Assembly (NCBI GenBank): GCA_014236755.1
Contig: JACCKY010000021.1
Span: 1-33,673 of the forward strand
Origin: Candidatus Petromonas tenebris
GTDB taxonomy: Bacteria > Bacillota > Clostridia > Peptostreptococcales > Caminicellaceae
Length of the DNA: 33,673 nucleotides
Direction of reading: 5' to 3'
Shown: positions 1,535 to 21,671 of the stretch, one piece after another
How positions within the stretch are numbered: position 1 is the first letter of the stretch
Layout: the number at the start of each line of letters is the position of its first letter
Translations under genes and position numbers: made by a program
The notes under the pieces: model-generated
What the model saw: the letters and a program-made list of their open reading frames with translations, nothing else
What the model was told of the DNA's origin: nothing
Database searches by the model: none

Positions 1535-1574
1535 AATGGGCTTAAGTATAGTATCAAGTAGAAGGGGTGTTAAC

Positions 1575-3608
1575 ATGATAAGTAATTTAGACATATCTAA
1601 TGCTATGACGATTAAACTTGATAATGAATTGCCTCCATATCCTAGATTTGTAGAAGGGATTAGGAGAGCACCGAAGAGAGAATTTAATCTTACACCAAGG
1701 GAAACGGAAATTGCACTAAAAAATGCGTTGCGTTATATACCTGAAGAATTACATGAAAAGCTTGCTCCAGAATTTTTGGAAGAGCTAATGACCAGAGGTA
1801 GAATTTACGGGTATCGTTTTAGACCAGAAGGAGAGATAAAGGGCAGACCAATTAATGAATATAAAGGTAAATGCATAGAAGGCAAAGCAATACAGGTGAT
1901 GATTGATAATAACTTAGATTTCGATATAGCACTTTATCCCTATGAACTCGTAACATATGGAGAAACCGGCCAGGTATGTCAAAACTGGATGCAATATAGA
2001 CTTATCAAAAAGTATCTTGAAGAGATGACTAATGAACAGACTTTAGTAGTTATGTCTGGCCACCCGTTAGGATTATTTAAATCTTCTCCAGAGGCACCTA
2101 GGGTAATTATTACAAATTCTATAATGGTAGGGATGTATGATAATCCTGAAATATGGCATAAGGCTGCGGCCATGGGGGTTGCAAATTATGGTCAGATGAC
2201 AGCAGGCGGATGGATGTATATTGGGCCTCAGGGGATTGTACACGGTACATTCAATACTATTTTAAACGCAGGGAGGCTTAAGCTAAGAATATGTGATAAC
2301 GAAGATTTAAGAGGTTATCTTTATGTTACTTCAGGCTTAGGAGGAATGAGCGGGGCCCAGGGTAAGGCCGTAAAGATTGCAAATGGAGTAGGTATAATAG
2401 CGGAAGTGGATTACTCAAGAATCCAGACAAGACTAGATCAGGGATGGATTGATACAGTCGTAGACACTTCTGAAAAAGCATATTCTTTAGCAAAAGAATA
2501 TCAAAATAAAAGAGAAGGCATTTCTATTGCTTTCTACGGTAATGTCGTAGATCTCCTTCAGTACGCTGTAGACAATGATGTAAAAATAGATCTATTATCA
2601 GATCAGACGTCGTGTCATGTACCCTATGATGGAGGATATTGTCCACAAGGTATTAGTTTTGAAGAAAGAACGGAGTTATTGAAAACTGATAAGAAAAAAT
2701 TTGCTAAGCTAGTTGATGAGTCCTTAAAGCATCATTTTAAACTTATCAAAACTTTAGTTGATAAGGGTACATATTTCTTTGATTATGGAAATGCATTTAT
2801 GAAGGCCGTATATGATGCAGGGGTTAAGGAAATCTGCAAAAATGGTAAGGACGAAAGTGAAGGCTTTATCTTCCCATCATATGTGGAGGATATAATGGGC
2901 CCAATGCTTTTTGATTATGGATATGGTCCTTTTAGATGGGTGTGTTTAAGTGGCAAAAAAGAAGATTTAAGAAAGACTGACAAAGCAGCGATGGAATGTA
3001 TTGATCCAAATAGAAGAGGACAAGATAGAGATAATTATGTGTGGATTAGAGATGCTGAAAAAAATGCTTTAGTTGTAGGTACACAGGCAAGAATACTCTA
3101 TCAGGACGCTATTGGTAGATTAAAAATAGCCCTTAAGTTTAATGAGATGGTTAGAAACGGTGAAGTAGGACCTATTATGCTTGGAAGAGATCATCATGAC
3201 ACTGGAGGAACTGATTCACCTTTTAGAGAAACTTCAAACATCAAGGATGGTAGTGATGTAATGGCTGAAATGGCTACCCACTGTTTTGCAGGTAATGCCG
3301 CAAGAGGTATGACAATGGTTGCACTTCATAACGGAGGTGGGGTAGGTATTGGTAAAGCTATAAACGGAGGATTTGGAATGGTTCTTGACGGAAGTGAAAG
3401 GGTAGACAACATTCTAAAGAAGGCTATGCCATGGGACGTTATGGTGGGAGTTTCTAGACGTGCTTGGGCTAGAAATGAAAACTCAATAGAAACGTGTATC
3501 GAGTATAATGACATGAATAAGGGAACGGATCATATTACAATTCCATATATACCAAAAGATGATTTAGTTAAAAATTTAATATATGAAGCTTTTAACAAAA
3601 AGAAATAA
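1575..3608 (+). CDS. hutU: Urocanate hydratase (long form)
   Basis: A 677-residue urocanase that converts urocanate to 4-imidazolone-5-propanoate, the second step of histidine breakdown, using tightly bound NAD+. The family is plain from the conserved YGETGQVCQNW at about residue 128, the glycine-rich GGWMYIGPQGIVHGT stretch, DQTSCHVPYDGGYCP, and RDHHDTGGTDSPFRETSN at about 538. The protein is about 120 residues longer than the 550-560-residue Pseudomonas and Bacillus type and fits the long clostridial form. The ATG at 1575 follows GAAGGGGTG (1561-1569). The ATG at 1536 would overlap the likely promoter and lacks a binding site. It heads the hut block but is separated from ftcD by a 390-base structured gap. 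Confidence 0.95.
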   Translation: MISNLDISNAMTIKLDNELPPYPRFVEGIRRAPKREFNLTPRETEIALKNALRYIPEELHEKLAPEFLEELMTRGRIYGYRFRPEGEIKGRPINEYKGKCIEGKAIQVMIDNNLDFDIALYPYELVTYGETGQVCQNWMQYRLIKKYLEEMTNEQTLVVMSGHPLGLFKSSPEAPRVIITNSIMVGMYDNPEIWHKAAAMGVANYGQMTAGGWMYIGPQGIVHGTFNTILNAGRLKLRICDNEDLRGYLYVTSGLGGMSGAQGKAVKIANGVGIIAEVDYSRIQTRLDQGWIDTVVDTSEKAYSLAKEYQNKREGISIAFYGNVVDLLQYAVDNDVKIDLLSDQTSCHVPYDGGYCPQGISFEERTELLKTDKKKFAKLVDESLKHHFKLIKTLVDKGTYFFDYGNAFMKAVYDAGVKEICKNGKDESEGFIFPSYVEDIMGPMLFDYGYGPFRWVCLSGKKEDLRKTDKAAMECIDPNRRGQDRDNYVWIRDAEKNALVVGTQARILYQDAIGRLKIALKFNEMVRNGEVGPIMLGRDHHDTGGTDSPFRETSNIKDGSDVMAEMATHCFAGNAARGMTMVALHNGGGVGIGKAINGGFGMVLDGSERVDNILKKAMPWDVMVGVSRRAWARNENSIETCIEYNDMNKGTDHITIPYIPKDDLVKNLIYEAFNKKK

Positions 3609-3611
3609 GAT

Positions 3612-3968
3612 TAACCTCTTGTGCTAGTTACTCTAACAGTATAGCTTTAAATATCCTTCAAAGTTTCCTCTGAAGCGACTTTGAAGAGCTGTTTTCACCT
3701 CTAAATCTTTTCTATTAAAACAACTCTTCTACGGAGCCTGAAGAGGATTATTGAAGGATATCTATAAGGAACTAGCGAGGCAAGTAAGATTAATTAAAGT
3801 TTATTTAATAGAAGCAAGCTTATAAGAATCTGCGATTGACCGCCGATGAAGGACTGTTTTTCTTTTGGGGGAAACATTAAACTAAAAAAAGTCCTTCAAA
3901 ATCGCCTCAGCAGAAACCTTATAGGTTGCTTAGCTTGCTTTAGTAAAACTAACTATCACAAAAGGTTA
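3612..3968. repeat. 357-base imperfect palindromic element with 19-base inverted ends
   Basis: This fills almost all of the gap between hutU and ftcD. The outer ends, TAACCTCTTGTGCTAGTTA (3612-3630) and the complement of 3950-3968, match at 17 of 19 positions. Two rod-like hairpins lie inside. Rod 1 runs 3618-3784, with an 11-bp perfect stem (3651-3661/3751-3761) and further stems 3623-3629/3770-3776, 3666-3671/3742-3747, 3683-3688/3724-3729 and 3690-3695/3717-3722. Rod 2 runs 3812-3940, with a 9-bp stem (3812-3820/3932-3940), 3821-3826/3918-3923 and 3848-3855/3890-3897. There is no coding sequence. The TA at each end would fit a TA-target MITE, but TA is self-complementary so this is weak. 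A processed or regulatory RNA inside the hut transcript is the other reading. Confidence 0.7.
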
Positions 3969-3998
3969 TGCTATTAAAAAAAGGAGAGGTGTCTTAAA

Positions 3999-4904
3999 AT
4001 GGCAAATATGCAGAAAATAGTACAATGTGTACCAAATTATAGTGAAGGTAGAGATTTGGACAAAATAGATAAGATTGTAAATCCCTTCAGAGGAAAGGAT
4101 GGAGTTAAACTTTTAGATTATAAAAGGGACGAAGACCATAATAGAGTTGTTGTAACTGTAATAGGAGAGCCTGAGGCTGTTAAAAGTGCAGTTTTAGAAT
4201 CTATGGGTATAGCTATTGAAGTTATAGATATGACTAAACATGAAGGACAGCACCCAAGAATGGGAGCTATAGATGTTGTTCCTTTTATACCAATAAAAAA
4301 TATAAGGATGACTGAAGCTGTTGAAATGGCGAAAGATGTCGCAAGGGAAGCTTCAGAAAGATTTAATCTGCCTATTTTCCTATATGAAAAAGCAGCAACA
4401 TCTCATGAGAGAACTAACCTGGCAAAGATCAGAAAGGGTCAGTTTGAAGGGATGGCAGAGAAAATTAAGGAGCCTGAATGGAAACCAGATTTTGGACCTA
4501 CCCAAATTCATCCTACAGCAGGTGTAACGGCAGTAGGAGCAAGAATGCCTCTTGTGGCCTACAACGTTAATTTAGATACTGATGACATAGAAATAGCTAA
4601 TAAGATTGCGAAAAGTGTAAGACATATTAGTGGTGGATTAAGGTACTGTAAGGCAATAGGTATTGAACTTGAAGAAAGGGGAATAGTTCAAGTTTCAATG
4701 AACATGACGGACTATACCAAGACTCCACTTTATAGAGTGTTTGAACTAATAAAGATTGAAGCCAAAAGATATGGCGTAAATGTAATAGGTAGTGAAGTAA
4801 TAGGATTAGTGCCTATGGAAGCATTAATTAATACTGCTGAATATTATTTGGGAATTGAAGATTTTTCGATGGATCAAATTTTAGAGAAAAGAATGATGGA
4901 GTAG
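3999..4904 (+). CDS. ftcD: Glutamate formimidoyltransferase
   Basis: A 301-residue enzyme that moves the formimino group of N-formimino-L-glutamate to tetrahydrofolate, giving glutamate and 5-formimino-THF. It corresponds to the N-terminal transferase half of the bifunctional mammalian FTCD; the cyclodeaminase half is encoded separately at 6306. Diagnostic segments are VPNYSEGRD (residues 11-19), DEDHNR (44-49) and HEGQHPRMGAID (81-92), whose first His matches the catalytic His of the mammalian enzyme. AAGGAGAGGTG (3981-3991) lies 7 bases before the ATG. The next gene, hutI, starts 7 bases after the stop, so the two are almost certainly cotranscribed and probably translationally coupled. Confidence 0.95.
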   Translation: MANMQKIVQCVPNYSEGRDLDKIDKIVNPFRGKDGVKLLDYKRDEDHNRVVVTVIGEPEAVKSAVLESMGIAIEVIDMTKHEGQHPRMGAIDVVPFIPIKNIRMTEAVEMAKDVAREASERFNLPIFLYEKAATSHERTNLAKIRKGQFEGMAEKIKEPEWKPDFGPTQIHPTAGVTAVGARMPLVAYNVNLDTDDIEIANKIAKSVRHISGGLRYCKAIGIELEERGIVQVSMNMTDYTKTPLYRVFELIKIEAKRYGVNVIGSEVIGLVPMEALINTAEYYLGIEDFSMDQILEKRMME

Positions 4905-21283: not shown

Positions 21284-21303
21284 TATATTGACAGCAAAAT
21301 AAG

Positions 21304-21475
21304 AATGTAGGTGCCTCGAAAGAGGGTAAAAGGGAAGTACGGTGAAAATCCGTCACAGCCCCCGCTACTGTAAGCACAGACGAAACCTTAGGATGCCACT
21401 GTCCAGAATATAAAAATTCAGGATGGGAAGGTAAGGTAGTAGGAAGAAGTGTGAGTCAGGAAACCTGCCTATGTT
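21304..21475 (+). ncRNA. Cobalamin (B12) riboswitch
   Basis: The conserved core GGGAAGTACGGTGAAAATCC (21332-21351) and CGTCACAGCCCCCGCTACTG (21351-21370) are almost exactly the consensus. The B12 box is present as GAGTCAGGAAACCTGCC (21453-21469). P1 forms between AATGTAGGT (21304-21312) and GCCTATGTT (21467-21475) with wobble pairs. It lies upstream of cbiM, so adenosylcobalamin or a related corrinoid should shut down cobalt uptake. Confidence 0.96.
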
Positions 21476-21485
21476 GTAATATATA

Positions 21486-21671
21486 CCTTCGGAGGGAAGG
21501 GCAAGATAAATATTTAACTAAATTTCAAAATATTTGCCTAACCTTCTCGGGTTAGGCTTTGATATTTTGAGAGGGTTTAGCTAAACTTATTCATCTATAA
21601 GGCAGCAAAAATGTTTTATAGTCATTGAAGTATTTACTTTGTCATGTAGAATAAGACCTACCTATCTTATT
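21486..21671 (+). promoter_or_regulatory. Riboswitch expression platform
   Basis: Three hairpins follow the aptamer. They are CCTTC/GAAGG (21486-21500), a long stem combining CAAAATAT/ATATTTTG (21526-21533/21562-21569) and GCCTAACC/GGTTAGGC (21536-21543/21550-21557), and AATAAGA/TCTTATT (21650-21656/21665-21671), which ends in a T-rich tail. Only the last looks like a terminator. The stretch from the aptamer to cbiM is unusually long at about 240 bases. Confidence 0.5.

Follow-up and report, generated by a model that had tools for sequence, protein, structure and literature searches.

The gap between hutU and ftcD in the genome of Candidatus Petromonas tenebris is very probably filled by two inverted, tail-to-tail copies of one MITE family, which duplicates TAANTTA target sites, would be moved in trans and carries a folded core that probably serves the element rather than the hut operon. 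The gap lies in what we call the window, the whole stretch of 33,673 nt that was analysed. An earlier note on this DNA had read positions 3612-3968 as one palindromic element of 357 bases, being either a MITE-like insertion or a structured RNA. The first of these was right in kind: we find many copies, conserved ends, a 7-bp target duplication and two paralogous empty sites. The features of the locus are as follows.

1536..3608, + strand: hutU (urocanase), an ORF with the Pfam Urocanase N, central and C domains
3606-3608: hutU stop codon, TAA
3607..3613: left 7-bp target duplication of copy A, AAGATTA, overlapping the hutU stop codon
3614..3785, + strand: copy A, a young intact 172-bp MITE copy (profile match E 2e-63, copy A itself belonging to that profile; CM R1 204.7 bits)
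3649..3764, + strand: folded core of copy A (rod 1; CM R2 107.8 bits, copy A itself being in R2)
3786..3792: right 7-bp target duplication of copy A, AAGATTA
about 3966-3793, − strand: copy B, an old diverged inverted copy (left terminus 3966; right end decayed, approximate)
3812..3931, − strand: folded core of copy B (rod 2; a row in the multi-copy core alignment, and fold z)
3967..3973: weak candidate for the left target site of copy B, reading TAGCATA on the − strand, read from the sequence
3999..4904, + strand: ftcD (formiminotransferase; Pfam FTCD_N and FTCD)

Downstream of ftcD lie an amidohydrolase gene and then a cyclodeaminase gene. By their coordinates, copies A and B leave about 37 nt of the gap, and positions 3609-3998 hold no ORF of at least 120 aa. 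Only one place in the window reaches the gathering score of an Rfam family, a cobalamin riboswitch at 21292-21486 (+ strand, 115.7 bits).

Two insertions of one family

When positions 3612-3968 were compared with the host genome by BLASTN, the only full-length match among the 40 scored of 177 candidates was the window itself. The other 39 same-strand places match from about base 1 to base 160-217 of the query at 88-96% identity, and the second half of the query finds other places, which are more diverged (13 with E below 1e-4, at 70-89% identity). Copy A has independent support from 95% BLASTN matches elsewhere in the genome, and the second copies with conserved ends, which the earlier note had named as support for mobility, are present. 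Copy B was recognised with a profile of 29 full first-half copies, the second half being excluded, which matches 3968-3841 on the − strand at E 1e-9. CM R1, which was built from 19 sequences including A and B and whose scores in the window fix boundaries rather than membership, places the two copies at 3609-3793 (+, 204.7 bits) and 3971-3790 (−, 118.8 bits), with one more match at E 0.4. For copy B neither a right terminus nor a target duplication is recognisable, and no right-hand duplicate of the candidate site TAGCATA was found. We suggest that copy B would have inserted first, directly after hutU, and that much later copy A would have inserted between the hutU stop codon and the right end of copy B, with AAGATTA duplicated and the stop codon preserved.

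The family unit is about 172 bp long (mostly 170-177 bp among 60 full copies) and has the termini ACCTCTTGTGCTAGTTACT at the left and AACTAGCGAGGCAAGT at the right. Within 3 mismatches, 75 left and 69 right termini occur in the host genome and reversed control patterns give 0. R1 matches all 88 scored candidates at 88 non-overlapping places, that is at least 88 copies, and the core model R2, which also recognises a second family (TATAGAT), matches 92 of 92 scored candidates in the same genome. Read from the sequence, the termini of copy A are imperfect inverted repeats (12/19) with an identical GCTAGTT block. The terminal inverted repeats of copies in G002, which we infer to be Maledivibacter halophilus M1, are nearer to perfect (ACCTGTTGTGCTAGT / ACTAGCACAACGAGT).

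The copies are placed between genes. None of the 42 in a 743-kb sample lies inside an ORF longer than 300 bases, where a simple ORF-based gene call covers 84% of the sequence. Gaps between tandem genes hold 30 copies (14 in the same and 16 in the opposite orientation to the genes), divergent gaps 8 and convergent gaps 4, close to each gap type's share by length; one of 43 sampled copies was left out of this count for want of a neighbour. This placement is the one expected from selection against gene disruption alone. At C61:30727-31302 (L055) two shortened copies stand with a B-like stretch in between. The family thus has the marks of a MITE: a length below 500 bp, no coding capacity, terminal inverted repeats, a target duplication and many dispersed intergenic copies.

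Target-site duplication and empty sites

In an alignment of copies with their flanks, the family is bordered on both sides by TAANTTA sites. For 40 full copies compared in a 7-bp register, the two flanks share 239 of 280 positions against 219.4 after shuffling (z 6.2), and registers of 5, 6, 8, 9 and 10 bp give no excess of identity in the same copies (z −0.8 to 1.6). Perfect 7-bp repeats border 26 of 60 full copies, repeats with one mismatch 22 and repeats with more mismatches 12; the remaining 36 of the 96 copies scoring at least 60 bits were left out of this count as truncated, near an edge or with unrecognised ends. Since rare site variants (TAAAGAA, TTATTTA, TATTTTA, GAAATTA, TAAATTC and TAAATTG) are duplicated exactly, a consensus preference cannot explain the identity of the flanks.

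Searching the joined flanks of each of the 60 copies against 0.89 Mb of the host's own sequence gave at least two clear empty sites, several copies matching only their own flank. The copy at C84:43084-43268 is nested in another repeat, of which the uninterrupted paralogs at C88:22055-21956 and L175:9904-9744 carry a single TAAAGTA. For the copy at C90:9912-10098 the empty paralog is C88:46080-46217, with CAATTTA in place of TAATTTA.

At least one mismatch separates the two 7-bp flanks in 34 of the 60 copies. In the copies with a single mismatch, 18 of 22 mismatches fall at positions 3-4 of the repeat (P 3e-7 for an even spread), and outside these positions there are 1 to 3 mismatches per position in 55 copies. 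Because the mismatches are so concentrated, simple decay does not explain them. Cruciform-arm repair was considered as their source and rejected, as the C/T pairs do not fit. In the mismatched copy at C13:10479 the right flank comes from the TATAGAT family and the left flank is unrelated, so recombination between copies may contribute to mismatched flanks. Central mismatches also occur in target repeats of some G001 copies (L341, L343).

Occurrence in related genomes

BLASTN found no match to the element in 39 relatives. With R1 we obtained 32 matches in G002, 6 in G004 and 3 in G001, which represent three other genera of the same family (Maledivibacter halophilus is itself placed in Peptostreptococcales, Caminicellaceae), and none in G003, also of this family, nor in 25 genomes from other families of the order. 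R2, which was built partly from the R1 matches in relatives, gave 83, 27 and 46 matches in G002, G004 and G001, among which a palindromic place may in some cases be counted once on each strand. G003 again gave nothing, and 35 genomes from outside the family yielded a single weak match (E 4e-4). When 391 genomes of the class were searched with 9 candidates scored in each, the host genome alone was returned; this search is a weak one, the matches in G001-G004 being unlisted too. Plasmid and phage records gave no match to the element. Of three patterns run against viral contigs, one matched a single contig, IMGVR_UViG_2524614863_000007, which has two type-ii cores (L368:843-957 and 3122-3236).

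One core between two sets of ends

In G002 the core occurs in two settings. Copies of a first type have termini like those in the window (TTAACCTGTTGTGCTAGT...ACTAGCACAACGAGTTAA) and TAANTTA flanks, and copies of a second type have the same core between TATAGATRTACGCC...GGCGTACATCTATA. Among 56 copies fetched from three genomes, our cut-offs assigned 16 to the first type (11 from G002, 5 from G001), 24 to the second, for which one recognised end sufficed, and 16 to neither. When the consensus of 8 first-type copies was set beside that of 10 second-type copies, all hand-picked from G002, the inner core was nearly identical and the outer parts could not be aligned. Two variants in G002 (L355, L356), 232-248 bp long, carry an extra palindromic insert, CACATAGGAAATTATAAT..., within the stem.

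The host genome also holds a second interspersed family, ending in TATAGAT (examples at L185:3664-3864 and L180:1905-2105), whose core is apparently related. R2, with no TATAGAT-family member in it, finds L185:3705-3819 and L180:1957-2068, each at E 8e-7. The flanks of this family are compatible with a TA duplication, and some of its members contain nested copies of the window family. As the arrangement is seen both in G002 and in the host, two families are paired around one core in two genera. We tentatively propose, as a reading we do not yet favour over its negation, that the core is a functional module that selection on the spreading element has kept and that, in two genera or more, has been combined with two or more unrelated sets of ends (ACYYSTTGTGCTAG with a 7-bp TAANTTA duplication, and TATAGAT).

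Is the fold kept by selection?

Covariation was measured in two alignments. Among 19 sequences from the host genome, two-sided changes occur in 14 of 29 pairs and covariation is 0.292, against 0.159 after shuffling and at most 0.095 when the structure is slid. Among 23 sequences, taken from four genomes and from two Geosporobacter species, the changes occur in 21 of 26 pairs and covariation is 0.580, against 0.228 and at most 0.175; in both comparisons the slid control is the better guide, the shuffles ignoring relatedness and the structure being derived from the same alignment. A weaker measure, the number of further pair types, reached its observed value in 47 and 25 of 500 shuffles for the 19- and 23-sequence alignments. 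The covariation that the earlier note had looked for therefore exists, but between lineages of a mobile element and not at a fixed position in an operon. Selection, if it acts at all, would act on spreading lineages rather than on resident copies. As compensatory change is found between lineages and the core is shared with the second family, the core would probably serve the element's own propagation or tolerance and not hut regulation, and if hutU or ftcD expression is affected at all, this would be a side effect of the two strong hairpins that the mRNA contains.

Palindromes undergo arm-by-arm correction, and covariation in the core could have arisen in this way, by template switching in a quasi-palindrome, with the fold itself functionless. 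Consistent with such correction, both strands fold about equally, and single pair changes in 47 young copies (13 of the 60 full copies being left out as too diverged) show no preference for GU, with 62 to GU and 68 to AC (P 0.66). At the element ends, moreover, paired sites do not vary less than loops (79/1268, 6.2%, versus 46/799, 5.8%). Arm correction would not, however, preserve unpaired flanking strands, and it is disfavoured because, by eye, the strands around GAGCGA and CATGAGCC can still be recognised in families and genera between which the stems vary freely. In the interior of young copies, paired sites also vary slightly less than loops (119/3711, 3.2%, versus 101/2300, 4.4%; P 0.02). 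Overall we consider it rather unlikely that correction accounts for the covariation, though it is the strongest of the alternatives.

Mobilisation and the search for a transposase

The element would be moved in trans, by a transposase that acts on its termini and makes a 7-bp staggered cut. In G002 we find derivatives of 66-95 bp (L348-L354) that have lost the core and kept the termini and TAANTTA-type flanking sites; by eye, L349-L351 share one deletion junction and L352-L353 another. Shared junctions in core-less derivatives with the same termini suggest that movement needs nothing but the ends, unless one deletion arose more than once.

A contrary possibility is that an enzyme of unknown kind mobilises the element by way of the folded core, in the form of RNA or of single-stranded DNA, the ends being interchangeable adaptors. 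The core is indeed the part common to families with different ends, target duplications mismatched at their centre are unusual, and no transposase with either set of ends turned up in the sequence searched. The core-less derivatives, with their own target sites, speak against it, even if slippage could make the same junction recur, as does the 7-bp duplication, which fits a staggered-cut transposase. We regard mobilisation through the core as improbable.

The search for a source of the presumed transposase can be summarised as follows. Of the eight PF01609 places, which take in both PF13612 places, seven were scanned, and all seven lack the family termini. IS982 elements have 'AC' ends and duplications of 3-9 bp; an origin of the family from IS982 was rejected, as the PF13612 places, on C68 and C92, lack the termini at up to 5 mismatches of 19. 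A base-by-base terminus scan of 0.89 Mb (about 29% of the host genome, the rest being covered by pattern only) gave 17 matches outside known copies, none of which could be paired as a transposon. Among orphan termini, 15 left and 14 right were chosen, and the 15 left and 5 right inspected revealed no autonomous transposon. A search for termini 0.5-3.5 kb apart that form a pair and carry a 7-bp duplication gave 13 candidates, several involving known copies, and in the one inspected, a stretch of C92, the ORFs are unlike transposases. In G002 no transposon with the family ends appeared among the terminus matches listed, of 143, and no IS630-type transposase (PF13358) was found for the TATAGAT family.

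The fold of the gap and the hut operon

Much of what the earlier note had observed about the fold of the gap holds. The folding energy of the 357 nt is −102.7 kcal/mol; 100 shuffles give −74.3 +/- 5.3, and none of them is as low (z −5.37). Both rods fold, rod 1 with z −5.3 on the + strand and −5.7 on the − strand, rod 2 with −3.7 and −3.5. The 19 bases at 3612-3630 agree with the reverse complement of 3950-3968 at 17 positions, and this inverted repeat extends to 26 nt at 81% identity. Of the two partners that had been claimed for GCTAGTT at 3623-3629, the one at 3770-3776 is fully complementary; the outer partner, which had been placed at 3950-3956, is truly at 3951-3957 and pairs at 6 of 7 positions. 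The view that the element fits no riboswitch is also upheld: no Rfam family reaches its gathering score on it, and a riboswitch or other known Rfam RNA was rejected, the element giving only weak matches below that score.

We then consider other hut operons. Named genomes supplied 80 ftcD loci; in 52 of them hutU lies upstream, with 43 gaps of 5 to 242 nt, four overlaps and five gaps of more than 1.2 kb. No element match by BLASTN or R1 lies in the hutU-ftcD gap of any of these 52, none of which comes from a close relative of the host. Over all 80 loci, BLASTN gave a single weak match (L109, E 0.015), and R1 at E of at most 0.01 matched Maledivibacter halophilus (L109, where no hutU is listed upstream of ftcD) and two Geosporobacter species (L116, L120), in no case within a hutU-ftcD gap. 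The Geosporobacter cores (L116:1480-1672 and L120:1399-1568) are alike in build and different in sequence. Three findings had been named in advance as ones that would tell against the earlier note: the absence of a second copy and the absence of covariation did not come about, and gaps lacking the stems did, though not in close relatives.

These results bear on the proposal that the gap encodes an RNA regulating the hut operon in cis, whose two alternative folds would set the ratio of hutU to ftcD. Such an RNA would agree with the strong fold of the sense strand, the covariation of the rods and the position between two same-strand genes of one pathway. But the element unit is found at 88 places and, in the 42 copies examined, in both orientations; the gaps of all 52 loci with hutU upstream of ftcD are without a match; and the two strands fold about equally well. 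GU is not favoured over AC in single changes, no Rfam family matches at gathering score (14 related loci gave weak matches only), and positions 3400-4100 lack a terminator-like site. A hut-specific RNA is therefore very improbable.

A single mobile element of 357 bases with its own 19-base inverted ends, suggested by their 17/19 match, is almost certainly wrong, given that only the window matches the whole query among 40 scored candidates, that the second half matches a different set, that copy A has a 7-bp duplication at each side and that copy B is an inverted family member. Because copy B belongs to the family of copy A, the 19-base "ends" that match each other are one and the same left terminus of the family, present twice in two separate inverted copies.

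Comparison with known elements

With two MITE insertions as the preferred reading, the family can be set beside other short palindromic repeats. In the Bacillus cereus group, bcr1 is a short interspersed palindromic repeat of a low-GC Gram-positive host with a target duplication of 5 bp, as against 7 bp (TAANTTA) here; we know of no transposase for it. Correia elements and ERIC duplicate TA, again differing from the 7 bp of the window family. IS200/IS605-type elements insert without target duplication, and a palindromic element of this type is ruled out by the 7-bp duplication.

Two MITE families of other bacteria are similar by description. QMITE2 of Coxiella burnetii, an unrelated host, is about 190 bp long, with 7-9 bp direct repeats, terminal repeats of 23-29 bp and a stem-loop-forming core of 113-145 bp, and has 78 copies, ten of them full length (PMC10969869); it is thus alike in size, direct repeats, terminal repeats and folding core, but the passages on it in that source mention no core shared between differently ended families, unlike here. 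The Chunjie MITE of Geobacter uraniireducens, as described in the same source, measures 178-235 bp and has dozens of intergenic copies with conserved ends and direct repeats, one of which disrupts an operon (PMC10969869), and so resembles the window family in size, copy number, conserved ends and intergenic repeats. REP units are 20-40 bp long and tagged GTAG or CGTC (PMC3116915, PMC3733652). REP and REPIN sequences are likewise extragenic, high-copy and palindromic, but a REP/BIME assignment was rejected, the window family being a 172-bp unit with termini and a 7-bp target duplication and not a 20-40 bp GTAG/CGTC palindrome. RNase III cleaves transcripts that carry Correia elements, and mRNA levels change with ERIC insertions (PMC10969869). 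By analogy, a similar side effect on transcripts is possible at the copies in the window.

A literature search, mostly at title level, brought up no published description that we recognised as these repeats, and no Rfam family matches at gathering score. The finding in the window is explained by an ordinary kind of thing, MITE insertions; more worth following is the interior that families with different ends share. Grouping of MITEs normally goes by the termini, since these are read by the transposase. Here two coexisting families share an interior fold and not their termini, with compensatory changes across genera and no sign that individual copies are selected for pairing. If the core is indeed a selected module, it would define a MITE superfamily by its interior and not by its ends, the inverse of the usual rule. 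The example also cautions that covariation alone does not prove a regulatory RNA, since copies of a mobile element can show covariation too. If the core aids movement or tolerance by the host, it would give the unexplained hairpins of bacterial MITEs a testable role.
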